Positions 2,779 to 46,198 of a stretch of DNA of 49,721 bases are shown here, piece after piece. Below the pieces are notes generated by a model. It searched no databases and was not told the origin of the DNA. It saw only the letters and a program-made list of their open reading frames with translations. The DNA lies in IMG/VR virus record IMGVR_UViG_3300042731_005221, positions 1 to 49,721 of that record, one strand, 5' to 3'. The DNA is from a virus. Made by a program: the position numbers and the translations under genes. Numbering within the stretch: the first letter of the stretch is position 1; each line of letters starts with the position of its first letter.

Positions 2779-2793
2779 AGGGAGAAAATCATA

Positions 2794-2955
2794 TTGCGAG
2801 CATTACAGACAAAATTGACTCCTGAACAAATAATGCTTGAATGCCGAGGATGTCACTGGTTCAATCCGAAAGCCCGCGTTTGGTGTAATCGGAAAGGCAA
2901 GCGGGAGACCGGGAAATTAGGAAAATGTTTGAATAAGAAGAAAGCGAGATTTTAA
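2794..2955 (+). CDS. small Cys4 zinc-finger protein, 53 aa
   Basis: Not annotated by length-based calling. TTG at 2794 follows AAGGGAGAAAATCATA. The product contains CRGCHWFNPKARVWCN and a later cysteine (GKCLNKKK), a Cys4 pattern, with a very basic C-terminus. A nucleic-acid-binding zinc finger is likely by composition. It closes the first run of small genes. Confidence 0.45.
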   Translation: MRALQTKLTPEQIMLECRGCHWFNPKARVWCNRKGKRETGKLGKCLNKKKARF

Positions 2956-3083
2956 AGGAGAACTTGACGAAGCGGCGTCAAGGATAACCGCATGGTCTTT
3001 ATTCCTTTACAAGAGTGATGAGTATGCCGGGGGAATCCGCTTAATTCCCCCCTTATTAAAAAACAATAAAACAGGGAGGGGGT
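2956..3083 (+). terminator. gene-free gap with hairpins, possible terminator
   Basis: The gap holds two inverted repeats: CTTGACG...CGTCAAG near 2968-2985, and GGGGGAAT (3029-3036) with ATTCCCCC (3044-3051), an 8-bp stem followed by CTTATTAAAAAA. The second could stop transcription weakly, though its U-tract is poor. The next gene's binding site (GGGAGGGGG) follows directly. Confidence 0.35.
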
Positions 3084-3347
3084 TTGAAAAAAAGGGGAAG
3101 ATATCCAATAAATCCTGATAAAATGCATTACTATGAGTTCCCGTTACATGACGGTGAATCACTCAGATTATTCGGATCAATTAACCAGTTTAAAAAGTAC
3201 CTTCATTTCACGGCGGCCATGATAAACGAATTAAAAATAAAACACTGGTCGGAAATCAAGTCAAAAGAGGTCGATATTTCATTTGGATATGGGCGCGGTT
3301 CATGGGAAAAAAACAGGGTAAAAAAGATGGGCGGCAGTTGTGATTGA
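3084..3347 (+). CDS. hypothetical protein, 87 aa
   Basis: TTG start after a very strong GGGAGGGGG site. The small basic protein has an aromatic-rich middle (MHYYEFPL, YLHFTAAMI) and a lysine-rich end. No family recognised. Its last codons overlap the -35 element of the promoter that drives the portal gene, so it marks the end of the accessory block. Confidence 0.45.
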   Translation: MKKRGRYPINPDKMHYYEFPLHDGESLRLFGSINQFKKYLHFTAAMINELKIKHWSEIKSKEVDISFGYGRGSWEKNRVKKMGGSCD

Positions 3348-3373
3348 CACAAAAATGAACGAACAATTAAAGT
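3344..3373 (+). promoter_or_regulatory. leaderless-type promoter before portal gene
   Basis: TTGACA at 3344-3349, then TAAAGT at 3368-3373 (18-base spacer). The stretch TTGACACAAAAATGAACG is nearly repeated at 6803 before the prohead protease gene, including the spacer. The predicted transcription start falls on the portal ATG at 3380 and there is no ribosome binding site, so the mRNA would be leaderless. Confidence 0.5.
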
Positions 3374-3379
3374 ATTTAT

Positions 3380-4900
3380 ATGTATACATTAGTTCCGATG
3401 TCCACGGCCAATTATGGAAGAGACGATAAAAATAGACGGGGACATAACGTCTATACCATTTCTGAGATTGTCGGAGTACAAGGGAGGGATCGAGCCGGTA
3501 GAATAATCGACGGTGAGGTTCAAATTCCTATTTTTATGCTCACTCCCCAAGAGCGTGAATATCTTGCCAGGTTATGCGCTCCGATATTCGCGGTCGTCAA
3601 TAATCGTTGTCAAAGAATAAGCGCCTTGGAATGGGAAATTACCAAGAAAAAAAGCGATGAAGACCGGATTGTACAAGCCCTTAGAATGGCCTATGATCTA
3701 TACCGTGAATGGGATTCTCCCACCGACGCTAAACACATCATCGTCCGTGCCCGGTGTATGAAGCAAATCAAAGAAGAATTGCCGGATATAAAAGACGACC
3801 TTTCCAATTTTTCTCAATCTCTAAAAAGGTGGTCTAAAAGACAAAAAATGACCGCCGATGACTCAAGCCAGGAGATAGTAGACTGGATAAACGAGCCTAA
3901 TGACAGCGACGATTTCGAGGAAATGACAAAAAAATGGACATATGATTTGATGGTCCACGGGGCCGATGCCCAATACATGATGATGATCGGCGGATTGCTT
4001 GACTCTGTTTACATGCTCCCGGGGGGATCGGTTTTGCCGCTTCGCGGTAGATATGTAGGCGGGGGGACCGGTTATGTCCAACTCATGCAGCTTGTCGAGC
4101 CTAAAATATATTTTTCCGATGAGATAATTTACGACAACTATATACCCATAAGTGCCAGGTCATACGGGTTAATTCCGATAGAAGCACTTCTAAACAAAAT
4201 AGCGGAATCCATGCTTTTTGATAAATTAGCGGCTGAACGAGCGGACGGAACCACTCCCCCGCAGAAGATTGTGGCATTTGGCGGGGGGACGGGAACCGCT
4301 GTTCTAGAAAACTTGGAAGGCGAAGAACTTAAATTACCGATTGACAAAGAAGAACAATCACGGATTGAGCATAAAATAAACGAGGAACGCAAAAACGCAA
4401 TCGTGACGTTGACTGGAATGGGGACACCGATGGTCGTTGATATATCGAAAGCTGATACATTCGGAACACAAAGCGAGCGGCAGGATAAACTTATTCGTGA
4501 CATCGGCATGGTATTTTCCGCTTCAAACGCGGAGATGAATCTTGACGGATCGATGGAGTTTTCCAGTCAAAGTGTAGCCACCCAACAGGAACGACAAGAG
4601 CGTGAGCGCGGCGTGTACCCGATTGTGAGAATCATAGACAAAACCGTGACAAAAAAATGGATACCCTACCGGTTTGGTCCCGGGTGGAAAATGGAACACA
4701 AAACCAGTTTGAGTGACGCTGAAAAATTGGCGCTTGATAAAGAAAGATTGCAGTCCGGCATGTATGACGTGAACACGCTCAAGGAAGAAAGAGGAGAACA
4801 ACCGTATGACAAAGAAGAGTTCAATTATCCCCAAGGGGCGCAACAGGCGCAATTGGGAGAGTCTCCAAATAATCCGCTATTTATGCGAGGTATGAAGTAA
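3380..4900 (+). CDS. portal protein
   Basis: The 506-residue protein has the features of phage portal proteins: an N-terminal region binding LARLCAPIFAVVNNRCQRIS, a central wing with glycine-rich loops (MLPGGSVLPLRGRYVGGG), a long helical stem region (KEEQSRIEHKINEERKNA) and an acidic C-terminus listing KLALDKERLQSGMYDVNTLKEERG, a typical portal tail. The portal forms the dodecameric DNA channel at one capsid vertex and docks the terminase. It heads the head-gene block and is followed by the minor capsid genes in normal order. No Shine-Dalgarno site precedes the ATG. Confidence 0.85.
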   Translation: MYTLVPMSTANYGRDDKNRRGHNVYTISEIVGVQGRDRAGRIIDGEVQIPIFMLTPQEREYLARLCAPIFAVVNNRCQRISALEWEITKKKSDEDRIVQALRMAYDLYREWDSPTDAKHIIVRARCMKQIKEELPDIKDDLSNFSQSLKRWSKRQKMTADDSSQEIVDWINEPNDSDDFEEMTKKWTYDLMVHGADAQYMMMIGGLLDSVYMLPGGSVLPLRGRYVGGGTGYVQLMQLVEPKIYFSDEIIYDNYIPISARSYGLIPIEALLNKIAESMLFDKLAAERADGTTPPQKIVAFGGGTGTAVLENLEGEELKLPIDKEEQSRIEHKINEERKNAIVTLTGMGTPMVVDISKADTFGTQSERQDKLIRDIGMVFSASNAEMNLDGSMEFSSQSVATQQERQERERGVYPIVRIIDKTVTKKWIPYRFGPGWKMEHKTSLSDAEKLALDKERLQSGMYDVNTLKEERGEQPYDKEEFNYPQGAQQAQLGESPNNPLFMRGMK

Positions 4901-13905: not shown

Positions 13906-14526
13906 ATGGCGTTACCCGATGCAACGGAAGTAAAAGCGTTTCTCACAGGATACGGAATAACCGATGATGTTTTAAATAAAGAATGGATTGAACGCCGAAG
14001 AGATTATAAAATCATACCAATACTTAAAAGAATATTGGGATATGACTTTGTAAACGGTGAAAGCGTTACTGAATATTTGAGCGGTAACGGGAAAGAAACG
14101 TTGATGTTAAGCCGTCGGGGAATGACGGCGTTAACTACGCTTGTCTACACGCACGCGGCGGACGCTACTTATAATCTCATGTCGTCAGTAACGCTTGATT
14201 CGGCCCGGGGGATACTGATAGCGAAATGCGTTTCGCCGGACGGTATTTTGACGGGGAGTATATTCCGCAAAGGCCAGTACAATATAAAAGCGGTGTACAC
14301 CATGCCCCCGTTAACCGATGACTTGGCGGAACTGATATTGTATCAAATGGCAAAAGCGGTGCTGATAATCATATCCAACCGGACCGGTGGCGGTGACAGC
14401 CTTAATGCGCAAGGATATGGAAGGAGTTTTGGACGGCGAGGAAAATACGGTAATCTTATGAGTGAGTTGGACAAAGACAGTGCCGCGATAATAGCCAAGT
14501 ATTCGACTGGGGTGGTGGCGGCATGA
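13906..14526 (+). CDS. head-tail connector-like protein
   Basis: ATG at 13906 lies just after the previous stop and GAGGATTGAT; an upstream in-frame start would overlap the LamG gene. The 206-residue protein begins MALPDATEVKAFLTGYGI, includes RRRDYKIIPILKRIL and a C-terminal helix with YQMAKAVLIIISN. Small proteins of this kind at the head-tail gene border form the connector (gp6-like) ring. Assignment rests on position and helical pattern, not on a firm motif. Confidence 0.5.
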   Translation: MALPDATEVKAFLTGYGITDDVLNKEWIERRRDYKIIPILKRILGYDFVNGESVTEYLSGNGKETLMLSRRGMTALTTLVYTHAADATYNLMSSVTLDSARGILIAKCVSPDGILTGSIFRKGQYNIKAVYTMPPLTDDLAELILYQMAKAVLIIISNRTGGGDSLNAQGYGRSFGRRGKYGNLMSELDKDSAAIIAKYSTGVVAA

Positions 14527-14969
14527 GCGGTTATCTTCCCCCGGCGGTAAGCCGGGAAGGAATGAATTTTGAAGCCGAACATGCTCTGCGGGACGTCCAG
14601 GCCGCCGCCTTGGAATACGGGACGGAAGTCAAGTTCTATACGCCGAGTGAATCAACCGTGAACCGGGGCCGTTATAACAGCGTAAAGTCGAGGGCGATTG
14701 ACGTTGATATAACCGTGTATGCCAACCAGGTTGATTACAGTCCGTCAAAAAAAACTCTTGAACGGGTTGGCTTATCGGAAGATACGGAGATTATCGTTTA
14801 TATCCCGACTCAAGAGTTTACCGACGTGACACATGATATTAAAAGTATTGATTTGATCCGGTGGCGGATGGTTGTCAAAGGCCGGGAATATATCATGTCC
14901 GACAAAAAATTATGGTCTGAAATAGGGGACACATATCTTTATATCGTTATCGGGGGTAAAGTGAAATGA
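14523..14969 (+). CDS. head closure / stopper-like protein
   Basis: Overlaps the connector gene by ATGA. The 148-residue protein has a helical start (MNFEAEHALRDVQAAALEYG) and a beta-rich body ending RWRMVVKGREYIMSDKKLW, an order typical of small head closure proteins, where a beta barrel seals the DNA exit. No specific family signature is visible. The next gene again overlaps its stop. Confidence 0.45.
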   Translation: MSGYLPPAVSREGMNFEAEHALRDVQAAALEYGTEVKFYTPSESTVNRGRYNSVKSRAIDVDITVYANQVDYSPSKKTLERVGLSEDTEIIVYIPTQEFTDVTHDIKSIDLIRWRMVVKGREYIMSDKKLWSEIGDTYLYIVIGGKVK

Positions 14970-15592
14970 CCCCTAAGATAAATCCAAGACTTAATTTTAC
15001 CAAAGAGTTGGCAGAAAAAAAAAGAAGAGTAGCCACTTTGCCGAGATATATGGAAGGGGCCATGTATTCGACGGCCAAGGGACGGGCAAAAGATTTTATA
15101 AAATATTGGCAGCGTAATATCAGAACCGACGCTTTGAGTGTCCGGCGGTTGAAATCCAAAACCGTCAAGATGAAAACCAAACGGGGGTATAGGAAACCGA
15201 GTGTGCCGTTGTACGGATTGGGGGACCGTGATCCTCACACCTATATCAACATGATGAGATTATATGCCATGAAAAACGGGTACAAGGTCGCTCCCGGCCG
15301 GAAAACGCATCATAAATCCGAGTTGAAATTAAAAGACCTTTTTATTGTCCATGAGTACGGGTGTACCATTCAAAACGGGTTCGGCAGAGGGATACATATC
15401 AGGATACCCGCCCGGCCGACTTTCTTCTTGAGTTATGAATCGTTTCTTATCAAAGAGGCCAAAAAGAAAAAAAACAGGATGGTGATGAACGCGGCCCGAC
15501 AATATATAAGAACCGGCCGGACTGAACTATTCCACAAAATCCGGTCACGGTACGGCGGCCGTGGTACGGGCGGCGAGGAAAAAGTATCATGA
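14966..15592 (+). CDS. tail completion / gp10-like protein
   Basis: The 208-residue, strongly basic protein has a helical N-terminus (ATLPRYMEGAMYSTAKGRA) and, at about 145-165, IHIRIPARPTFFLSYESFLI, resembling the conserved iPARPFl segment of HK97 gp10-like and phage virion morphogenesis proteins that complete tails. Its place between head closure and the tail sheath supports a tail terminator or completion role. Confidence 0.55.
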   Translation: MTPKINPRLNFTKELAEKKRRVATLPRYMEGAMYSTAKGRAKDFIKYWQRNIRTDALSVRRLKSKTVKMKTKRGYRKPSVPLYGLGDRDPHTYINMMRLYAMKNGYKVAPGRKTHHKSELKLKDLFIVHEYGCTIQNGFGRGIHIRIPARPTFFLSYESFLIKEAKKKKNRMVMNAARQYIRTGRTELFHKIRSRYGGRGTGGEEKVS

Positions 15593-16788
15593 ATACCGTT
15601 ATAGACAATCTTGACACCGCGACCGATTGGACCGGTACGGGCACGGTCGCGGTACACGGGTTGAATGAGCATAAAGATTTTATCGCCGGTGGTAACTTGA
15701 AATCGCTTGTCTTGAGTTTTCCGTCAGGCAATTCCGGCAATTACGCCACTAAAGATTTGGCTACTCCCATAGACGTATCGGATTATAACGATCTCGTTTT
15801 CAGCATCTGGTCAAGAAGTAAGGGCAATTCGATATATGAAACGGAAGGCGATTTTCTCTACACCCTCGACCTGGGGGACGGAAAACAATTTGACATCCCG
15901 GTATGGGAGACGTTTTCGCAGGTATCGGTCGATATAAGCGATATAGATACTATCGAGAGAATCAGGATTATAGCCAACCATAATGACGCCGATTATATTT
16001 TGATTTCATACATGATAGCGGTAACCGACGATATCCCGGCCGATATATTCAGCGCGTTTAAAGCCGGATTGGAGTCGGCCCGGGCTGAAATATTCCCGTA
16101 TGGGGGGCCGCTTGTAGCCACCGTGTCGGCTGATATGGGAGACACGGAAATCACGTTTGAGGGTAACAGGTATTATCTCGCTGAAGACGCGGTTGTATAT
16201 ATCACCGACGGGGTTAACACCGAAACCCATCAATTGAAAGAAGGTGAAGGTGATACTTTTACGATGTCCGAGTTATACGACGGTGCGGAAATATTAAACG
16301 ATTACACGGACGCCGACGTGTACCTGCAGTATCCGGTCGAGTTTGGACCGTATGAAAAAGAGGCCATTTTCCCTGGAGTGGGAATATGGGGGTTTGTGCC
16401 TACGCCTATGCACCATGTACCGCATAGGGACGAAAATATCAAAGGATATTCGGGCGGTAAGTTTCAGTTTCGATTAGGGGGTTTGAGCGAAAGTTGGCGG
16501 ATTGTGATAGACGCCCAAGCGAAAGACCCGGATAATATCGCGGATATGACGCGGTTTATACGAAAATATCTGTCACGATGCGTGGCGTGGATCAACGGAA
16601 GGGACTTTGATTTCGAGTGGATGGACCCACCGGCGGATGAAACGCCGGATGATGCCATGAATATTATTCCTCATTTGTCCTATATCGTTGACATAGAAAT
16701 CGTCGAAGACGTAGAGTCAGATGAGGAAAGAACAGCGGCCGTGACTCAAAATCTCACGGTGAATATAGAAGAACAGGGGGGAATATGA
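15589..16788 (+). CDS. virion structural protein with galactose-binding-like N-terminus
   Basis: The 399-residue protein begins with a jelly-roll pattern (residues 1-145: DNLDTATDWTGTGTVAVHG, LKSLVLSFPSGNSGNYATKD, IDVSDYNDLVFSIWSR), as in carbohydrate-binding modules. A second part (150-250) has a phage-type beta insert. The C-terminal part (260-399) has MTRFIRKYLSRCVAWING. It overlaps both neighbours and precedes the sheath gene, so it is likely a neck or tail-terminator-associated protein. Confidence 0.45.
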   Translation: MNTVIDNLDTATDWTGTGTVAVHGLNEHKDFIAGGNLKSLVLSFPSGNSGNYATKDLATPIDVSDYNDLVFSIWSRSKGNSIYETEGDFLYTLDLGDGKQFDIPVWETFSQVSVDISDIDTIERIRIIANHNDADYILISYMIAVTDDIPADIFSAFKAGLESARAEIFPYGGPLVATVSADMGDTEITFEGNRYYLAEDAVVYITDGVNTETHQLKEGEGDTFTMSELYDGAEILNDYTDADVYLQYPVEFGPYEKEAIFPGVGIWGFVPTPMHHVPHRDENIKGYSGGKFQFRLGGLSESWRIVIDAQAKDPDNIADMTRFIRKYLSRCVAWINGRDFDFEWMDPPADETPDDAMNIIPHLSYIVDIEIVEDVESDEERTAAVTQNLTVNIEEQGGI

Positions 16789-29803: not shown

Positions 29804-30520
29804 ATGGAAGCAAAAGAAAGACATGTCAGAATGGAACAACCGGCACCCAGACGGGTAATGATCGGTACACCGTCCCATGACGGGCGAGTGGAAGTTCTTT
29901 ACACCAACGCTCTGATTGAAACGATCAGGGCTTGCGCGGCAGCTAATATCATCATCGAACAATTTTTCATTAAAGATGATGCCCTTCTTGTCAGGATGCG
30001 GAACGATATCGTCAAACAGGCGCTTTTGAGAGAGGTTGACGATTTGGTGTTTATCGACTTTGACATGGACTGGACCCCCGGGCAATTTTTGAAACTTCTT
30101 TCCCATCCCGTTGACTTGGTATCCGGGACGGCCAGAAAAAAAACAGACACGCAGGAAGTTTACGCCGTAAAATGCAATCGTCCCATCGATAAGATGGAGA
30201 AAGACAAAAACGGGTTGATTGAAGTCGACGGCGTGGGATGTGCTTTCACCCGGATGACAAAAAAGTGTATGCAAAAACTTTGGAAAAAAGCAAAAGCTTA
30301 TAATGACGATAATCGCGGCGGGAAAAACAAAATGATTTTCAGGATTGAAATAGTCAACGGAGAGTTGACGGGTGAGGATATTATGATGTCACGGCTTTGG
30401 AAATCATGCGGCGGTAAAGTTTACCTTGATCCGGAAATTACGGTCGGTCATATCGGGTCTAAATGTTTTGTAGGAAACTTTTCGGCTTGGCTTAACAGGG
30501 CGAAAATAAACGGCGGTTAA
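29804..30520 (+). CDS. GT-A-type glycosyltransferase
   Basis: ATG after AAGGAGAAACCAT. The 238-residue protein begins RRVMIGTPSHDGRVEVLYTN, has VFIDFDMDWTPGQFLKLL at 83-100 with DxD-type acidic residues for metal and nucleotide sugar, and later a GEDIMMSRLWKSCGGKVYLD and VGHIGSKCF end, typical of phage-encoded GT-A transferases. It may glycosylate the virion fibre or modify host surface sugars. It sits directly after the fibre and before the lysis genes. Confidence 0.65.
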   Translation: MEAKERHVRMEQPAPRRVMIGTPSHDGRVEVLYTNALIETIRACAAANIIIEQFFIKDDALLVRMRNDIVKQALLREVDDLVFIDFDMDWTPGQFLKLLSHPVDLVSGTARKKTDTQEVYAVKCNRPIDKMEKDKNGLIEVDGVGCAFTRMTKKCMQKLWKKAKAYNDDNRGGKNKMIFRIEIVNGELTGEDIMMSRLWKSCGGKVYLDPEITVGHIGSKCFVGNFSAWLNRAKINGG

Positions 30521-30522
30521 TT

Positions 30523-30798
30523 ATGGCGGAAAAAAACGTCTCGGTTGAAAATCACAAATGGACACCTAAAAGATTGTTGCCGGTATTCATTACAAACGCG
30601 GTTACTATAATCGGGTTTGTTGTTGTTTATGGAATTATCAATCCAAACGCTTCCGCCACCGAGAAAATAAATAAACATGAAACAAGAATCAGCGTGAACG
30701 AAACCAATATCAGTACGACCATTAAAGGTTTGTCGTCGCTGAATGATAAAGTTGAGAGGATCCTTGATATCCTTTTGAAATGGAGGGATAGGCTGTGA
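30523..30798 (+). CDS. membrane protein with coiled coil (holin or XhlA-like)
   Basis: The 91-residue protein has a charged N-terminus, one transmembrane helix at 18-40 (LLPVFITNAVTIIGFVVVYG) and a C-terminal coiled coil (NETNISTTIKGLSSLNDKVE) ending in basic residues. The gene overlaps the endolysin-like start. In phage lysis cassettes such proteins act as holins or XhlA-type partners. Confidence 0.5.
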   Translation: MAEKNVSVENHKWTPKRLLPVFITNAVTIIGFVVVYGIINPNASATEKINKHETRISVNETNISTTIKGLSSLNDKVERILDILLKWRDRL

Positions 30799-31412
30799 AG
30801 GGATGCTTAAACACGGGACGTAACGCGCTATATCGCCAGGGCAATAATGTTATGGAAATCCTCGATGGCCCGGCTTTGACTAAATGTAACGATACGGCGA
30901 TTGTATTGCCGTGGGCAGCGGTAACGCCTAAATTCGATGAATGGGAAAATCCTTTCGGAGGAAGCTACCGTAAATGGCAGCCAGAGGATTTGGTTGACCT
31001 GTATTTCCATGAAGAGAAAAATTGGCCTCATTTCCAACAGACAAGAAAACTGCCACTGTGCCATGAACAACCGCATGATGGCAAGTGGCCGCCGGAACAG
31101 ATACCGCAATATCATCAATTGGCTTTACGGGAAATATTTAATTGCGGTTCTGATTTTTCATTCAACGCTACCTTCACGTATGTGGCGGGAGAAGTGAGTA
31201 GAGGTGTCGCCTGTATTCTAAGATTAAAAAACCCAGGGCATTTCGTGACGGCTGTCGCTTATAAAGAAAAAGATATGTTGATCGGCTTCAAAGACCCTGC
31301 TCCCGTGAAATGGTTGCAGAAAACAGAAGATGCCGACGGAAACAAATGGATGGGTCTTAATGATTTCGTAGACAACGTTCATACCGATATTACCAGATGC
31401 TGGAGGTTATGA
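30795..31412 (+). CDS. C39-like peptidase, probable endolysin
   Basis: GTG start after TGGAGGGATAGGCT overlaps the upstream stop. Of 205 residues, C31 in LTKCNDTAIVL and H152 in NPGHFVTAVAYKEKD, with GFKDPAP after it, match the Cys, His and Asp/DPA arrangement of C39-like papain-fold peptidases used in some endolysins. No signal peptide. Flanking small membrane proteins support a wall-cutting role. The family assignment is from motif spacing only. Confidence 0.5.
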   Translation: MKGCLNTGRNALYRQGNNVMEILDGPALTKCNDTAIVLPWAAVTPKFDEWENPFGGSYRKWQPEDLVDLYFHEEKNWPHFQQTRKLPLCHEQPHDGKWPPEQIPQYHQLALREIFNCGSDFSFNATFTYVAGEVSRGVACILRLKNPGHFVTAVAYKEKDMLIGFKDPAPVKWLQKTEDADGNKWMGLNDFVDNVHTDITRCWRL

Positions 31413-31663
31413 TTATGATGCTCAAGATTTTACAAGGTGCTACCGTGGGACTTGTCGCGGTTATTCTTCTCGCTGGGCTGGGTATTGTGTTGTTCAAACC
31501 GGACGCTATCGCCGCTTATGTTCAGTACGTTCCTGTGGCGACGGGAATTCTTATACCGGAAATAGCCGCCGCGTTTTTGGGCAAACCGCTTAAAGAGTTT
31601 GTAGCGATTCAGCGGGAAAAAGCTAACGGCGGATCAAAACCGCTTGAAAATATAGGAGGATAA
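31409..31663 (+). CDS. small membrane protein in lysis cassette
   Basis: ATG at 31409 follows TGGAGGTT, overlapping the previous stop; ATG at 31415 is an alternative. The 84-residue protein has two hydrophobic segments (LQGATVGLVAVILLAGLGIV and VPVATGILIPEIAAAFLG) and a basic end. It is a holin candidate. Confidence 0.5.
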   Translation: MIMMLKILQGATVGLVAVILLAGLGIVLFKPDAIAAYVQYVPVATGILIPEIAAAFLGKPLKEFVAIQREKANGGSKPLENIGG

Positions 31664-31664
31664 T

Positions 31665-32156
31665 TTGTGGCGCGTAATATCGTTATCGTTATTTTTTCTT
31701 TGCTTGTCGTCGCCGGTGCTATCGGCACAATCAGGGGATTTGTCTGTGAGAATGCAAATGCAACAGAAATTATTGGACTGCGAACTGAAATTGATAGCTT
31801 GCGCACAGCAAATCAAAACTTTGGAGAACTTAACCAGCGACTTGAGCAATCAATTAACGATAGAAAAAAACGAGAGGAAAACCGAGAACGAGAGAGACAA
31901 AAAATTATTGATGGATTACGAAACGCAGTTAACGGAGCAACGGGAGATATACAAACGGCAATCACAGGAATACGAGAATGTCAAAAACTCGCTCTCCAGA
32001 TTGAGAACTGAAAATACTATTCTGTGGATCGCCGACGGCGTAATTGGTACGGGGTTGATTTTATACGGCCTGTTCACTGGAGACATGCCGTTGATAATAA
32101 TCGGCGGCGCTATGGCGGTTACCTGCGGTTTTCATTTCGTGTTCGATATTTTTTAA
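31665..32156 (+). CDS. spanin-like protein, outer frame of an overlapping pair
   Basis: TTG start at 31665, just after AGGAGGATAA. The 163-residue product has an N-terminal signal (SLSLFFLCLSSPVLSAQ), a long coiled coil (25-110) and two hydrophobic C-terminal segments (WIADGVIGTGLILYGLFTG and PLIIIGGAMAVTCGFHFVF). This exported start, coiled coil and C-terminal membrane anchor resemble a unimolecular spanin, which joins outer and inner membranes at lysis. The lipobox is not canonical (FFLC). A second 114-codon gene lies fully inside it in another frame. Confidence 0.5.
   Translation: MWRVISLSLFFLCLSSPVLSAQSGDLSVRMQMQQKLLDCELKLIACAQQIKTLENLTSDLSNQLTIEKNERKTENERDKKLLMDYETQLTEQREIYKRQSQEYENVKNSLSRLRTENTILWIADGVIGTGLILYGLFTGDMPLIIIGGAMAVTCGFHFVFDIF
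31667..32011 (+). CDS. i-spanin (Rz-like) protein, embedded frame
   Basis: GTG at 31667 shares the ribosome binding site with the 31665 TTG start (the codons overlap by one base). The 114-residue product has an N-terminal signal anchor (NIVIVIFSLLVVAGAIG) and a long charged coiled coil (EIDSLRTANQNFGELNQRLE, RKKREENRERERQKI), the form of inner-membrane spanin Rz. Which of the two frames is mainly translated cannot be settled by eye; both have membrane signals and coiled coils. Confidence 0.5.
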   Translation: MARNIVIVIFSLLVVAGAIGTIRGFVCENANATEIIGLRTEIDSLRTANQNFGELNQRLEQSINDRKKREENRERERQKIIDGLRNAVNGATGDIQTAITGIRECQKLALQIEN

Positions 32157-32190
32157 AGGTCCGGGGCACCGGGCTTGCTTCCATAATTGA

Positions 32191-32215
32191 GGGTCGGCGA
32201 AAGTCGGCCCTTTTT
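32191..32215 (+). terminator. Rho-independent terminator after lysis cassette
   Basis: GGGTCGGC (32191-32198), GAAA loop, GTCGGCCC (32203-32210), then TTTTT. The 8-bp stem includes two G-U pairs. It separates the late genes from the next regulated block. Confidence 0.75.
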
Positions 32216-32218
32216 ATA

Positions 32219-32247
32219 TTGATAATCTGTACTGATTGCGGTATATT
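32219..32247 (+). promoter_or_regulatory. promoter 1 of the GATTG family
   Basis: TTGATA (32219-32224), 17-base spacer, TATATT (32242-32247). The spacer end GATTGCGG is shared with 32489. The predicted start lands on the ATG at 32254, so the HTH gene mRNA would be leaderless. Confidence 0.65.
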
Positions 32248-41487: not shown

Positions 41488-41916
41488 ATGAGAAAGAGAG
41501 AAAAAATAAAACAGGCCGCCAGGTATTCGCAAATCAATATGGAAAACGCCATTAAGATGGTTTCCAAAAAACATGACTATCACGCTCCGCAGGAATACGG
41601 GTTTACAAAGGACCGATTCGCGGATGAGGTTTCCCGGGTGGAAAAAAACTTGTTGAACGATATCATTATTGGGAATATATGCAAGGCATATATTGAGAGG
41701 TCGAAGTTTCTCACTTGGCGGGTGAACAAAATCACAAAGTGGATTGATGAAATGGCTAAAGAGATCGAACGGAAAGAAAAAATCGAGCGTGAAAAGAAAG
41801 CCAAGGAAAACGCGGAAATGAAAACCGAAAAACCGGAAGCGATACCGATGACCGGGCTTAACAGGAAACAGCGGAGGAAAATAGAAAGACAAAAAAAGAA
41901 GGAACATAAAGAATGA
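41488..41916 (+). CDS. charged helical protein before csf1
   Basis: ATG at 41488 after AAAGGAGATGAT; the earlier in-frame ATG at 41428 lies inside the preceding gene. The 142-residue protein is basic and helical with a long KEIERKEKIEREKKAKENAE segment and a GLNRKQRRKIERQKKK end. It overlaps csf1 by 4 bases and could be the first gene of the csf operon. No family recognised. Confidence 0.5.
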   Translation: MRKREKIKQAARYSQINMENAIKMVSKKHDYHAPQEYGFTKDRFADEVSRVEKNLLNDIIIGNICKAYIERSKFLTWRVNKITKWIDEMAKEIERKEKIEREKKAKENAEMKTEKPEAIPMTGLNRKQRRKIERQKKKEHKE

Positions 41917-42764
41917 AATATTTAACAGCATCAATGCTTTTTGCGGGACAATCACAATGTGCGGGGGAATATCGGTGTTATTATTGCGGTGCGTATTGTG
42001 ACGAAACTTATAAAACAAATGAATATGTAAAGCCTACTTTTACAAATCGAGATATTGTCAGATTTCCAGGATCGGAATATGTATGTTTTGGTTGCATTGA
42101 ATCTCTTGGGCAGGGTCCTGATAGCATAGAGATGATAGACGGAACGATTAAAGAAAGAACAACACCGCGTGGCATGCAACCACGGATGTATTCATGGGTA
42201 TTGACGCAGACAAAAAAAGTCGCGGCGACAAAGGCGCATAGGAAATATCTTCGAGAAATAATTCTTAATCCGCCGGAACCTCCGTTTGTTATTGTAATTG
42301 CCGATTCTGGACAAAAACAATTAATATTCCGCGCGCCCGTGGCTATGAGTCGCGATGTATATCCCCTGTTGCTTGAGAATCAACGAATAGAGGTCGTTTC
42401 CGCTGTTCTTTTGGAAAGATTAAAAATGACTCCGCCTATTTGCGCGGCCCTCGGAAAACCAGCATTACTCGGTGAAATTACTACCGGATCGTATGTCCGG
42501 TATGAAGAATATCATAGTTCTATCGACGGTTTAGAGCGTTGGCTCCGTATCCGAGAAGAACCGATGTCACGTCTTGCGGCGTGGCTGTCTCCATCGAAGG
42601 AGGAAGCACAATATGAATATCCAGGTATTAAGCGCACAGGAATTCAGGCAAAAACTGGCGGGTATAATCGATCCCGATCAAGCAATGCCGGAGGAAATGA
42701 AAGAAGAAGTGAAGACGATGGCCGTCAACTTCACCTCGGTTTTGGCGAGTCTGTTCAGCGATGA
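41913..42764 (+). CDS. csf1: Csf1-like type IV CRISPR-Cas large subunit
   Basis: ATG overlaps the upstream stop. The 283-residue protein has a Cys4 zinc finger at the start (C22, C25 in YRCYYCGAYC; C58, C61 in YVCFGC), then APVAMSRDVYPLLLENQRIE and LGEITTGSYVRYEEYHSSID. A zinc finger first and Csf1-like length and order, next to csf2 and csf3, fit the type IV Cas8-like protein. It sits at the 5' end of the guide complex in characterised systems. The last 50 residues (Gly, Ser, Arg-rich) overlap the next gene for 152 bases and are probably disordered. Confidence 0.75.
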   Translation: MKYLTASMLFAGQSQCAGEYRCYYCGAYCDETYKTNEYVKPTFTNRDIVRFPGSEYVCFGCIESLGQGPDSIEMIDGTIKERTTPRGMQPRMYSWVLTQTKKVAATKAHRKYLREIILNPPEPPFVIVIADSGQKQLIFRAPVAMSRDVYPLLLENQRIEVVSAVLLERLKMTPPICAALGKPALLGEITTGSYVRYEEYHSSIDGLERWLRIREEPMSRLAAWLSPSKEEAQYEYPGIKRTGIQAKTGGYNRSRSSNAGGNERRSEDDGRQLHLGFGESVQR

Positions 42765-43128
42765 TCTTGACCGTAAAACTTTGTGGGAGAGAATCGGAAA
42801 TGGTATCGTCGTCTGTTCTGCAAAGTGCGGGGGTGATTGGGAGACCTTTATTAATCAAATCCTTGAGTATATAAAGGCCGACGGTGCAAAGGTAGCTTCT
42901 TCAAAAGATTTCAACATTATTTTTGAGGATTTAACGAATCGGACGCAATCGTGGCGTGAGGCGTGGTTACGGGTCATGGAAAAAAAGCATTATCTTATTA
43001 TCGTAAAAGCCCGCGCATTATGGAATTCTCTCAAGGCAGAGAAAGCCAAGGCCAGCGAAGAATTGAAAAAAGAAAAGGATGAGCTTTTTGAAGACGATAT
43101 TCCCGAAGCGAAAAGGGGGAAAAAATGA
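42613..43128 (+). CDS. Cas11-like small subunit (type IV-B position)
   Basis: ATG at 42613 after GAAGGAGGAAGCACAAT. The 171-residue protein is all helical (LSAQEFRQKLAGIIDPDQAM, VNFTSVLASLFSDDLDRKTL, LRVMEKKHYLIIVKARALWN) with a charged tail. In type IV-B loci a small helical Cas11 protein lies between csf1 and csf2, exactly as here. Homology cannot be shown by eye because Cas11 proteins have little sequence similarity. It overlaps csf1 for 152 bases and csf2 for 4. Confidence 0.55.
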   Translation: MNIQVLSAQEFRQKLAGIIDPDQAMPEEMKEEVKTMAVNFTSVLASLFSDDLDRKTLWERIGNGIVVCSAKCGGDWETFINQILEYIKADGAKVASSKDFNIIFEDLTNRTQSWREAWLRVMEKKHYLIIVKARALWNSLKAEKAKASEELKKEKDELFEDDIPEAKRGKK

Positions 43129-44045
43129 ACTTAATAAAAAACTGCAAAATACATTGCGTATCAGAAACCCTGGCCATGCTTACGCATATGATGGGCACCG
43201 CCGGGAATGAAGCAATTATCAACCGCGAACAAGTATACACAAAAGGCAAGCTCCGAGAAGTCCCGGTATTGTCTGGGAATGCTATACGTCATCGAATGAT
43301 AAGAGAGCCGGGGGCGCTTTTTCTTATTGGGGCCTGTGGCCTTAAGGGTAAACTCAACATCGACCAGGCTAATTATCTTTTCAATGGCGGGAACTTAACG
43401 GAATCTTCAACAACCGAAAACTTGGCGCGTATTGCTGAAATGCAGGAACTTATGCCGTTAATCCGGCTGCTTGGCGGCAGTCTTAAAAACCAGGTTATTG
43501 GCGGTAGTCTCTATGTTCTTCGCGGGTTGCTTGTCTGCGAAGAAAACCGCGAGGCAATATCCAAAATGATACCGGAAGAAATTGGATTGCCTGATGAGGC
43601 GCTTCGCTCATGCGAGGATTTCGTAACACAATACCAATATACCAGGGGTGACGCACGAAAACGCAATGACGCCGGGCAATTACTCGAAATGCCAGACGCA
43701 GACAATACTCAACTAATGATATATAACGGCCAGAATGTTTGTCCAGGGGCGCTTTGGTATCATGGATTTATTCTCCAAAATATATCACCGCTTGAGGTTG
43801 GTGCACTTCTTCATGCTCTTCAACAGTGGGAAGCTTCGGGTGGAACTATCGGCGGGCAAGCACGTATCGGGCATGGGAGATTAAAAACAAGTATCTATAT
43901 GGAAAACGGTGAAAATTTTTACGGTTCCGATCTGGATACTTTGGAGGTTGTTGCCGATTATATCAAGCATATTGATACCAACAAGGACAAGATAGCGGAA
44001 TGGTTGATGGCCGCGTTCCCAAGCAGGGGGCTTAAAATCAAATGA
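43125..44045 (+). CDS. csf2: Csf2 (type IV Cas7-like backbone protein)
   Basis: ATGA overlap. The 306-residue RAMP protein opens IHCVSETLAMLTHMMGTAGN, then VPVLSGNAIRHRMIREPGAL at about 45-65, a Cas7-family signature, and GGTIGGQARIGHGRLKTS at about 238-255, the Gly-rich loop. Csf2 subunits form the helical backbone that wraps the RNA. Strong family match by motif order and neighbours. Confidence 0.85.
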   Translation: MNLIKNCKIHCVSETLAMLTHMMGTAGNEAIINREQVYTKGKLREVPVLSGNAIRHRMIREPGALFLIGACGLKGKLNIDQANYLFNGGNLTESSTTENLARIAEMQELMPLIRLLGGSLKNQVIGGSLYVLRGLLVCEENREAISKMIPEEIGLPDEALRSCEDFVTQYQYTRGDARKRNDAGQLLEMPDADNTQLMIYNGQNVCPGALWYHGFILQNISPLEVGALLHALQQWEASGGTIGGQARIGHGRLKTSIYMENGENFYGSDLDTLEVVADYIKHIDTNKDKIAEWLMAAFPSRGLKIK

Positions 44046-44722
44046 TAAAAAACTGGAAAGCGACGGCGTACCTGAGTACGCCACTTGCGTTTGATCCTCC
44101 TGCATTTGATGCGCTTTTGGAATGGGAATTGGCGCGACGATTGGGAATGAAACATCACAACAAACTTACTCGTAATGTCCCATTGTCGGAAATTGATCCA
44201 GTACCAATACCTTTGGCGCAAAGAACAATCAATGGCCATGATGTTTTTTGTTGTTCCGATCCCATACTTCCGCCCCCGCGAGCGGAATGGTCCGATCATC
44301 AATCCAAGCGCATAGAAACACATAAAATAGCGCTATTACTTGATTCTACTCAAAGGAGAAGCTTGCTTATAGGCTCAGGTCCTTATAAAATGCGGTATGT
44401 GCCAGTTCGAGTACGATTGGTTGATCGTGTAATATGGTTTTTTCGTGGTGATAAAAAAGAAGTCAATAAACTATTAAAATCAGTCATCGGCTTGGGTAAG
44501 CATAGAAATATAGGATACGGTCTTATTGATCGCTGGGAATATGAGGAGACGCCAGAAGATTATAGTATCACCGCTCTTTGTCGAGGAAAGCCGGTGTTGA
44601 TGAAAACCATCCCAACTGGTCCGCAACTTGGAGGGCTTACTGGGTATAGAAAATCATTCGGCGGAGCGTTTCCTCCCTACTGGCACCCGGAAACATATAT
44701 GGAGGTTGCCGTACCGTGTTGA
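44042..44722 (+). CDS. csf3: Csf3 (type IV Cas5-like protein)
   Basis: ATGA overlap with csf2. The 226-residue protein starts with ATAYLSTPLAFDPPAFDALL, has GLGKHRNIGYGLIDRWEYEE at about 150-170 (the RAMP Gly-rich loop) and ends GYRKSFGGAFPPYWHPETYM, a Csf3-typical PPYWH end. Csf3 caps the 5' handle side of the complex. Its final bases overlap the winged-helix gene. Confidence 0.8.
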   Translation: MIKNWKATAYLSTPLAFDPPAFDALLEWELARRLGMKHHNKLTRNVPLSEIDPVPIPLAQRTINGHDVFCCSDPILPPPRAEWSDHQSKRIETHKIALLLDSTQRRSLLIGSGPYKMRYVPVRVRLVDRVIWFFRGDKKEVNKLLKSVIGLGKHRNIGYGLIDRWEYEETPEDYSITALCRGKPVLMKTIPTGPQLGGLTGYRKSFGGAFPPYWHPETYMEVAVPC

Positions 44723-44982
44723 CAGGATCGGAACATGTAAATGAATATGGATATAGAATGCATTATACAAGGACTGACACTCCTAGGGAGTTGCGATTCG
44801 ATACAAAATGGCAACGCATGAAACATCTTGAAAATCTTTTAAAGCAACATCCCTGGACAAAGTCTGGACTGGCAAGACAATTACATGTGCACCGCTCAAC
44901 CATCGGCAGATATATCGATGAAATGAGCGAACTTGTTTTAATCCAAGAGGACGACAATGGGAGGCTGTCGATTGCGAATTAA
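44716..44982 (+). CDS. winged-helix regulator between csf3 and radical SAM gene
   Basis: GTG at 44716 overlaps csf3; an internal ATG at 44758 is possible. Of 88 residues, 45-85 hold a helix-turn-helix (TKSGLARQLHVHRSTIGRYI, DEMSELVLIQEDDNGRLS), as in DeoR or WYL-type winged helices. It has no effector domain. It may control the csf operon or link to host regulation. Its place within the overlapping run makes it part of the module. Confidence 0.65.
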   Translation: MLTGSEHVNEYGYRMHYTRTDTPRELRFDTKWQRMKHLENLLKQHPWTKSGLARQLHVHRSTIGRYIDEMSELVLIQEDDNGRLSIAN

Positions 44983-46198
44983 TTTGATTGAGGCTTGCAA
45001 TGACGCAGACACGGGAAGTATAGGAGCTTTTTATGTAAAAACTCATGCAGAAAAAACGGGACATATTGTTGAAATGAACCGGTATACAAAATTGGGATAT
45101 GATATTGAAATGATTTCACTTCATCATTGCTCTGATTTTTTGCGGCTTTTGAAATTGCCACAAAAAGCGCCCATTAGATTAATAGGCGGGCACCCTATGC
45201 AGAATAATCCGCTTCCTATTATAAAATATGGGGATGCTGTTTTTGTCGGAGAAGCCGAAAATTCTATAGGAGAATCTTTGGATCGGATAGAAAGGGACGG
45301 CATTGATGGCCTGAAAAATCAAGCTGGATGGATAATATCAAAAAACTGGAAGAAGGGCATGGATTTGCCAGAGGTTGTGATTTGTAATCCTTTACCAGAA
45401 AACCCTCCTTATCTTAATCGTCCTGGAACAAGATCGGCTGCTTGGTATGTAGAAATCGCCCGTGGATGCCCTTTTAAATGTCATTATTGCGAACTTGGAT
45501 ATAGTTCCAAATTCAGAATATATAAAAAGGATCATTTAATTGAGGTTTTGAAACGATGTGATTTGTCAAAAACAAGAAAAATAAATTTCTATGCTCCTGA
45601 TGAAGCAAGTTATCCGGCCTATAAAGAGCTTTATGAGTACTTAAAAACAGAAGGATATATGGCTGCTTTTAGCTCAATGCGGCTTGAATCTGTCATGAAA
45701 AACAAACCGCCCATAGCAAAAAATATGCTTATTCGGATAGGAATTGATGGGCTTACCGAATCAACCCGCGCACGTGTTAATAAAAAGATTACAAATTCAA
45801 TGATTCTCAATTATTATCGGATGCTTATCGATGCGGGACACGTCCAGTTTAAACAGTTTATGATATTTGGTTATCCATGGGAAAAAATATCAGATTTTGA
45901 CGAATTTGAATATTTGATGCAAGGGATATTCAGAATCCCGCTTAAAAAAAATGTTTCTCTTAGAATAAAATGGACACCTTTTATTCCGCAGCCATGCACA
46001 CCTTTAGGAAAAGAAGACGCTATATATGATTATGATATGGTAGACAGGATAAATACATGGCACGCGTTAAATAAACGGCCGAGATATGAGCCGGGATGGT
46101 TTGTTGAGAATGACGGATTAATGATGGAAAAATCACATCGGCTACAGTGTGAATTGACAAAAGGGGACGAAGATGTTCTTGATAAATATAAAAAATAA
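44972..46198 (+). CDS. radical SAM enzyme linked to the csf operon
   Basis: TTG at 44972, with GGGAGG 7 bases upstream, is preferred to the ATG at 44957. The 408-residue protein has an N-terminal Rossmann-like region like the B12-binding part of some radical SAM enzymes (IRLIGGHPMQNNPLPIIKYG, DAVFVGEAENSIGESL) but no DxHxxG cobalamin motif. Then RGCPFKCHYC at about 165-173 gives CX3CX2C for a 4Fe-4S cluster, followed by the barrel (FYAPDEASYPAYKELYEYLK, IRIGIDGLTESTRARVNKKI, FKQFMIFGYPWEK). The substrate is unknown. It overlaps the regulator by 11 bases. Confidence 0.85.
   Translation: MRINLIEACNDADTGSIGAFYVKTHAEKTGHIVEMNRYTKLGYDIEMISLHHCSDFLRLLKLPQKAPIRLIGGHPMQNNPLPIIKYGDAVFVGEAENSIGESLDRIERDGIDGLKNQAGWIISKNWKKGMDLPEVVICNPLPENPPYLNRPGTRSAAWYVEIARGCPFKCHYCELGYSSKFRIYKKDHLIEVLKRCDLSKTRKINFYAPDEASYPAYKELYEYLKTEGYMAAFSSMRLESVMKNKPPIAKNMLIRIGIDGLTESTRARVNKKITNSMILNYYRMLIDAGHVQFKQFMIFGYPWEKISDFDEFEYLMQGIFRIPLKKNVSLRIKWTPFIPQPCTPLGKEDAIYDYDMVDRINTWHALNKRPRYEPGWFVENDGLMMEKSHRLQCELTKGDEDVLDKYKK

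Follow-up and report, generated by a model that had tools for sequence, protein, structure and literature searches.

A nested pair of envelope-protein frames with coincident starts: a candidate spanin-like lysis locus in a phage related to Leptospira phages LE3 and LE4

Can one stretch of phage DNA encode two envelope proteins whose start codons share a base, and what might such a pair do? The question arises from a 49.7-kb record, handled as a virus and referred to here as the window (the whole stretch of DNA that was analysed, 49,721 nucleotides), in which a 163-codon frame (A) and a 114-codon frame (B) overlap. On re-reading the window sequence, the coordinates and lengths assigned to both frames in the original prediction were found to be exact; they are listed here with their immediate surroundings.

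30523-30798, plus strand: small membrane protein, with a weak PHROG match to hemolysin/holin families and positional counterparts in the IMG/VR contig L005 and in LE4
30795-31412, plus strand: endolysin candidate, 62% identical to an L005 protein and with a distant counterpart in Leptospira phage LE4
31397-31663, plus strand: holin-like small protein, named from its position, size and hydrophobicity
31654-31659, plus strand: Shine-Dalgarno motif AGGAGG, which can serve both starts
31665-32156, plus strand: frame A, 163 codons from TTG at 31665-31667
31667-32011, plus strand: frame B, 114 codons from GTG at 31667-31669
32189-32222, plus strand: terminator-like hairpin with a T-rich tail, 3' of frame A

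Base 31667 is common to the TTG of A and the GTG of B, the start region reads AGGAGG-ATAAT-TTGTGG, and the TAA of the holin-like gene ends one base ahead of the TTG. Neither frame can start earlier, because a TAG at 31653 lies in frame 5' of A, and that same TAA, at 31661, is in frame with B immediately 5' of its GTG; in-frame starts further downstream in either would remove the hydrophobic N-terminus. The aligned spacing (DtoStart) from the AGGAGG at 31654-31659 is 13 to the TTG and 15 to the GTG, which bears out the proposal that one ribosome binding site serves both.

The N-terminus of A (MWRVISLSLFFLCLSSPVLSAQS) has the form of an ordinary cleavable-type signal peptide without a lipobox, and is followed by a helix of more than 100 residues and then by a glycine-rich, hydrophobic C-terminal hairpin. 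A single-sequence AlphaFold2 model (mean pLDDT 84.7) has helices at residues 2-14 and 26-138, separated by a break at 15-25, and a hairpin helix at 141-162; the cysteines lie at positions 39 and 46. Sub-cut-off family matches are common for coiled coils, as with that of A to NCBIfam TIGR04211 (20.6 bits, far below the cut-off of 65). B consists of an N-terminal hydrophobic membrane anchor continued as a single long helix (modelled as one helix at 2-113, mean pLDDT 87.5), and weakly matches Rz-like spanin families (PHROG 214, E=7e-4; PHROG 739, E=3e-3; PHROG 9841, E=0.02), to which its counterparts in two relatives, L025 and L035, give stronger matches. With its N-terminal inner-membrane anchor and helical periplasmic domain, both features of an i-spanin, B is best read as an Rz-like i-spanin-type protein. 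Scanning six frames of the window for lipoboxes, with lambda as control (Rz1 and Bor were recovered), returned no SD-led lipoprotein candidate, and a classical lipoprotein o-spanin in the window was rejected on this basis. No outer-membrane anchor is recognisable in either product. By ordinary export rules, the signal peptide of A would probably be cleaved and its C-terminal segment would halt in the inner membrane; alternatively, that glycine-rich segment might enter the outer membrane.

The pair ends an array that runs from the tail spike, through one further gene, to the small membrane protein, endolysin candidate, holin-like gene, A/B and the hairpin, the last having the longest stem of the region's six terminator-like sites, where chance alone would give 2.1. 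No family match was found for the holin-like protein at 31397-31663, and the endolysin of L005 matches Peptidase_C39_2 weakly (E=0.09). Taken together with the models and hydrophobic N-termini of A and B, these upstream endolysin-like and holin-like genes support the original description of a nested pair of exported helical proteins in a lysis-gene context. The window belongs to a contractile-tailed phage whose head and tail genes mark it as a distant relative of Leptospira phages LE3 and LE4 (identities of 42-43% for the major capsid protein, 34% for the sheath-type protein and 34% for the portal), a kinship that suggests its host may be a spirochaete. The LE4 genes ATN95058-ATN95062 are ordered similarly to the lysis region of the window, and a candidate cassette can be placed in each phage.

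LE4 (L001), 13931-15980: candidate lysis cassette
LE3 (L009), 2792-4841: candidate lysis cassette

Both comprise, in order, genes for a small membrane protein, an endolysin-like protein, a holin-like or small membrane protein and two envelope proteins, the last of which is A-like, bearing a possible lipobox (FIQC) and, at its C-terminus, a membrane segment. These last two genes are adjacent and lack coincident starts, whereas the window pair is nested. As a by-product, the comparison thus offers candidate lysis genes for LE3 and LE4, where the genome paper had identified none (PMC6078989).

Elsewhere in the window, the protein encoded between tail spike and lysis genes (29804-30520) matches PHROG_1574 (E=4e-14), and its relatives are annotated as polysaccharide biosynthesis proteins or mannan polymerase subunits. 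PADLOC matches four consecutive genes at 41913-44722 to the effector subunits of type IV-A CRISPR systems (Cas8/Csf1, E=5e-74; Cas11, E=9e-41; Cas7/Csf2, E=1e-92; Cas5/Csf3, E=1e-37), with which NCBIfam agrees at scores below cut-off. Three nearby stretches showed no CRISPR-like array, and we therefore regard these genes as an effector module carried by the phage with no obvious array of its own. They adjoin a gene for a radical SAM protein with a possible B12-binding domain (44957-46198).

The double open frame is not a product of chance. When A was re-encoded with the codon usage of this phage, none of 20,000 trials kept B open, and the reciprocal re-encoding of B left A open in one of 20,000; under a stricter test that permutes each gene's own codons, the second frame was open in about 1% of trials each way. 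Synonymous re-encoding nearly always shuts the second frame at every one of six loci; A given B in L035 is the weakest case (0.08). Further, a six-frame scan of 51 records (about 0.73 Mb, with some overlap among records) for starts no more than 60 nt apart, hydrophobic N-termini in both frames and polar remainders in both, returned only pairs of the A/B kind.

Direct searches of IMG/VR contigs and INPHARED phage records with A and B gave no match, nor did searches of the same collections with proteins of relatives; the relatives themselves were reached through the endolysin (L005) and the major capsid protein (L024, L025, L026, L035 and L047). At position 8866 of L005, 233 bases past the endolysin gene, the sequence AATAAGGAGTGTCTA-GTGTGGCG contains two GTG codons overlapping by one base, which open a frame with a signal peptide (VWRNILFIFLLSFCYSPPLYSQS) and another with an N-terminal anchor (MAKHIIYISIILLLLAALVLTI). 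This pair runs into the contig end, and both frames are open throughout the 36-37 codons present. The start of contig G001 does not extend the L005 pair, so G001 is not closed across it. L005/G001 and the window share their lysis genes, including the endolysin, and almost nothing else by tblastn, a pattern suggesting that dissimilar phages have exchanged this cassette.

A scripted scan of the capsid-protein relatives placed an A/B-type pair in L024, L025, L026, L035 and L047. The start of A precedes that of B by 2 nt in the window, L005, L024 and L025, and by 5 nt in L026; the order is reversed in L047, where B leads by 4 nt, and in L035, where it leads by 7 nt. The start of A minus that of B equals 1 modulo 3 in seven of seven loci (the window and six others), and each of the six complete loci encodes an A with a hydrophobic segment at its C-terminus. 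The original prediction turned on neither frame being interrupted in homologues, and a stop was found in none of the six further loci (0/6), which are homologous by sequence only in part. Indeed, profile comparison among the window, L047 and L024 groups demonstrated no sequence homology between them, so the shared layout may reflect either deep descent or convergence. Further searches gave the following: endolysin profiles run against genome contigs, viral contigs and capsid relatives yielded no additional cassette; the B and A alignments, used as queries, recovered the L024-L026 records only; a B profile run against 297 genomes of the order of G023 matched G023 itself and, weakly, one sequence with two internal stops; and L059 and L060 hold Leptospira plasmid-phages that are related through the capsid protein but lack a pair of this type. 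L035 derives from a MAG labelled Clostridia, possibly through a binning error.

Substitution tests were made in the L024 group (L024, L025, L026 and L035), whose members are closer relatives of each other, and here both frames are under selection. Between L024 and L025, differences at codon positions 1, 2 and 3 amount to 0.22, 0.24 and 0.33 in A and 0.31, 0.19 and 0.23 in B, and the third-position excess seen in three neighbouring genes (0.10, 0.06, 0.42; 0.07, 0.04, 0.28; and 0.10, 0.05, 0.38) is absent from the overlap. This flat pattern, with near-equal protein identity (A 64%, B 61%), answers the call for a codon-level check, showing constraint on both frames across this pair of genomes. 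Simulating selection on a single frame from L024 to the divergence of L025 produced 3.3-4.8 stops in the other frame, where none is observed (simulated probability of no stop in the unselected frame at most 0.03); with the selected frame held at its observed identity, the other dropped to about 0.47. Within this group the periplasmic cysteines are invariant in A and in B. Selection on both frames implies, as far as sequence comparison can carry the point, that both are translated in these relatives. The window has no close full-length relative among those found, and its own support accordingly consists of the re-encoding test and the recurrence of the pair in L005.

How might both frames be started? 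In Escherichia coli, overlapping AUGUG starts are read in both frames at aligned spacings of 12/14, and overlapping GUGUG starts at 12/14 and beyond; UUGUG was absent from the start pairs tested (Kohl et al., PMC9841429). Among the loci described here, L024 and L025 have AUGUG with aligned spacings of 12/14, while the GUGUG of L005 and the UUGUG of the window both have 13/15. These four loci therefore lie inside the measured range of dual initiation, such that both frames can plausibly start from one site, the UUGUG of the window being an extrapolation from AUGUG and GUGUG. L026 has two SD-like motifs, one suiting each start, an arrangement resembling that described for tamA (PMC9841429), and the spacings in L035 and L047 fit dual initiation less neatly. 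In the window, a single AGGAGG would put UUG and GUG both within P-site reach, and ribosomes dividing between the frames would deliver A and B in a set ratio; we infer that both starts are used. A shared start of this kind is unusual, as originally claimed, and its initiation mechanism has bacterial precedents in Thermus rnpA-rpmH and in the E. coli AUGUG and GUGUG pairs (PMC9841429). No precedent for overlapping-start initiation in spanins was found in the literature. At these loci natural selection appears to have kept an ambiguous start that yields two long products, so that the choice of start, the spacing and the ratio of products become directly testable.

What the two products do is a separate matter. 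We think it probable that this dual-coding gene supplies the last two proteins of the lysis cassette, with B of i-spanin type and A its lipid-free partner in the o-spanin role, both begun by ambiguous initiation. The narrower claim, that nesting, coincident starts, a lipid-free and C-terminally anchored A, and a product ratio set by single-site initiation together form a new two-component spanin arrangement, we hold to be evenly balanced. B would be anchored by its N-terminus in the inner membrane with its helical rod in the periplasm; A, exported by its signal peptide, would set a second periplasmic rod on a C-terminal membrane anchor; and once holin and endolysin had acted, the two might pair through their helices and disrupt the outer membrane. 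Contact between A and B, and a part for the pair in lysis, are predictions of this model, and the outer-membrane step is its weakest part. The two-component reading is supported by recurrence of the pair, dual constraint, the Rz-like matches of B, lysis-type neighbours, the start spacings and the invariant cysteines. Counting against a spanin are the want of a recognisable outer-membrane anchor, the position of the L024-group pair among head genes, the absence of cysteines from both A and B of L047, and the MAG label of L035, as a clostridial host, should the binning be correct, would have no need of a spanin. The lack of demonstrable homology among the three groups and the absence of UUGUG from the tested start pairs also weigh against the model.

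Each of three rival explanations draws on part of this evidence. That only one frame is a real gene (B as i-spanin, or A alone), the other being an accident carried by the U-rich signal sequence, gains something from the tendency of long second frames to arise by chance, from the hydrophobicity of U-rich stretches in several frames, and from the lack in the window of a close full-length relative on which substitutions could be compared; it is made highly improbable by the re-encoding tests, the flat codon-position pattern, the single-frame simulations and the finding of one and the same relative frame at all seven loci. The pair could instead be dual-coding without serving lysis, as two inner-membrane coiled-coil proteins concerned, for example, with superinfection control or holin regulation. 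The L024 group, with its pair between capsid and connector genes and not adjoining an endolysin, fits such a role, as does the want of a known outer-membrane anchor in either protein; in the window, L005 and L047, however, endolysin-like and holin-like genes lie directly 5' of the pair (the L047 endolysin being a clear M15 peptidase), and the Rz-like profile matches of B also make a non-lysis function unlikely.

The remaining alternative, in which A acts alone in the manner of a unimolecular spanin (u-spanin) and B has a separate part as helper or regulator, we judge quite unlikely. A signal peptide with a C-terminal membrane segment does give A the u-spanin outline, and in LE3 and LE4 the A-like protein, with its possible lipobox, has a gene to itself. 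Against this, all 58 catalogued u-spanins carry the lipobox that A lacks, and they are beta-rich without periplasmic cysteine (PMC6139136), whereas A is modelled as all helix and, both in the window and in the L024 group, contains cysteines; B, moreover, is Rz-like by profile. A fits the o-spanin definition no better, since that class consists of outer-membrane lipoproteins with a lipobox, and all o-spanins and u-spanins in the published survey are lipoproteins (PMC6139136). Nor is the embedded architecture matched, in which the o-spanin start falls inside the i-spanin gene, at 0.4-0.5 of its length in about 70% of embedded pairs (PMC6139136); the window starts are 2 nt apart, at about zero. 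The likeness to Rz1-in-Rz genes drawn in the original prediction therefore stands on the Rz side, through the PHROG matches of B, and fails on the Rz1 side, where A has a C-terminal membrane segment and no lipobox. With no convincing lipoprotein found elsewhere in the contig and a start position unlike that of lambda, the pair is not a canonical Rz/Rz1, and as A falls outside both the o-spanin and u-spanin definitions, we file A/B as a spanin-like lysis pair in a new arrangement. Periplasmic cysteines occur in most two-component spanins, and the survey raises, as an untested possibility, spanin components anchored in other ways, among them type I inner-membrane proteins whose TM domain is C-terminal (PMC6139136); the A/B loci are concrete candidates for such a non-lipoprotein component.

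A close comparison is with lambda Rz/Rz1, likewise two envelope proteins encoded in overlapping frames of one lysis cassette, after holin and endolysin. Lambda Rz and B share an N-terminal anchor and helical rod, and the offset of Rz1 from Rz, 220 nt, equals 1 modulo 3, the same relative frame as A against B. Rz1, however, starts inside Rz, the 220 nt amounting to 0.48 of the gene length, whereas the starts of A and B share a base; and Rz1 is a lipoprotein of 60 codons, whereas A is longer than B, lacks a lipobox and ends in a membrane segment. With u-spanins of the T1 gp11 type, A shares an N-terminal export signal and a C-terminal membrane segment, and differs in lacking the lipobox, in being helical and not beta-rich, in its cysteines, and in having an Rz-like partner in the same DNA (PMC6139136). 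At the level of initiation, Thermus rnpA-rpmH and the E. coli AUGUG and GUGUG pairs likewise place two starts a few bases apart behind one ribosome-binding site to open two frames. The rpmH-rnpA starts, however, read AUGGAUG and lead to cytosolic products with unrelated roles, whereas A and B look like partners; and the alternative frame of E. coli tamA runs to about 10 codons, whereas A and B are both long.
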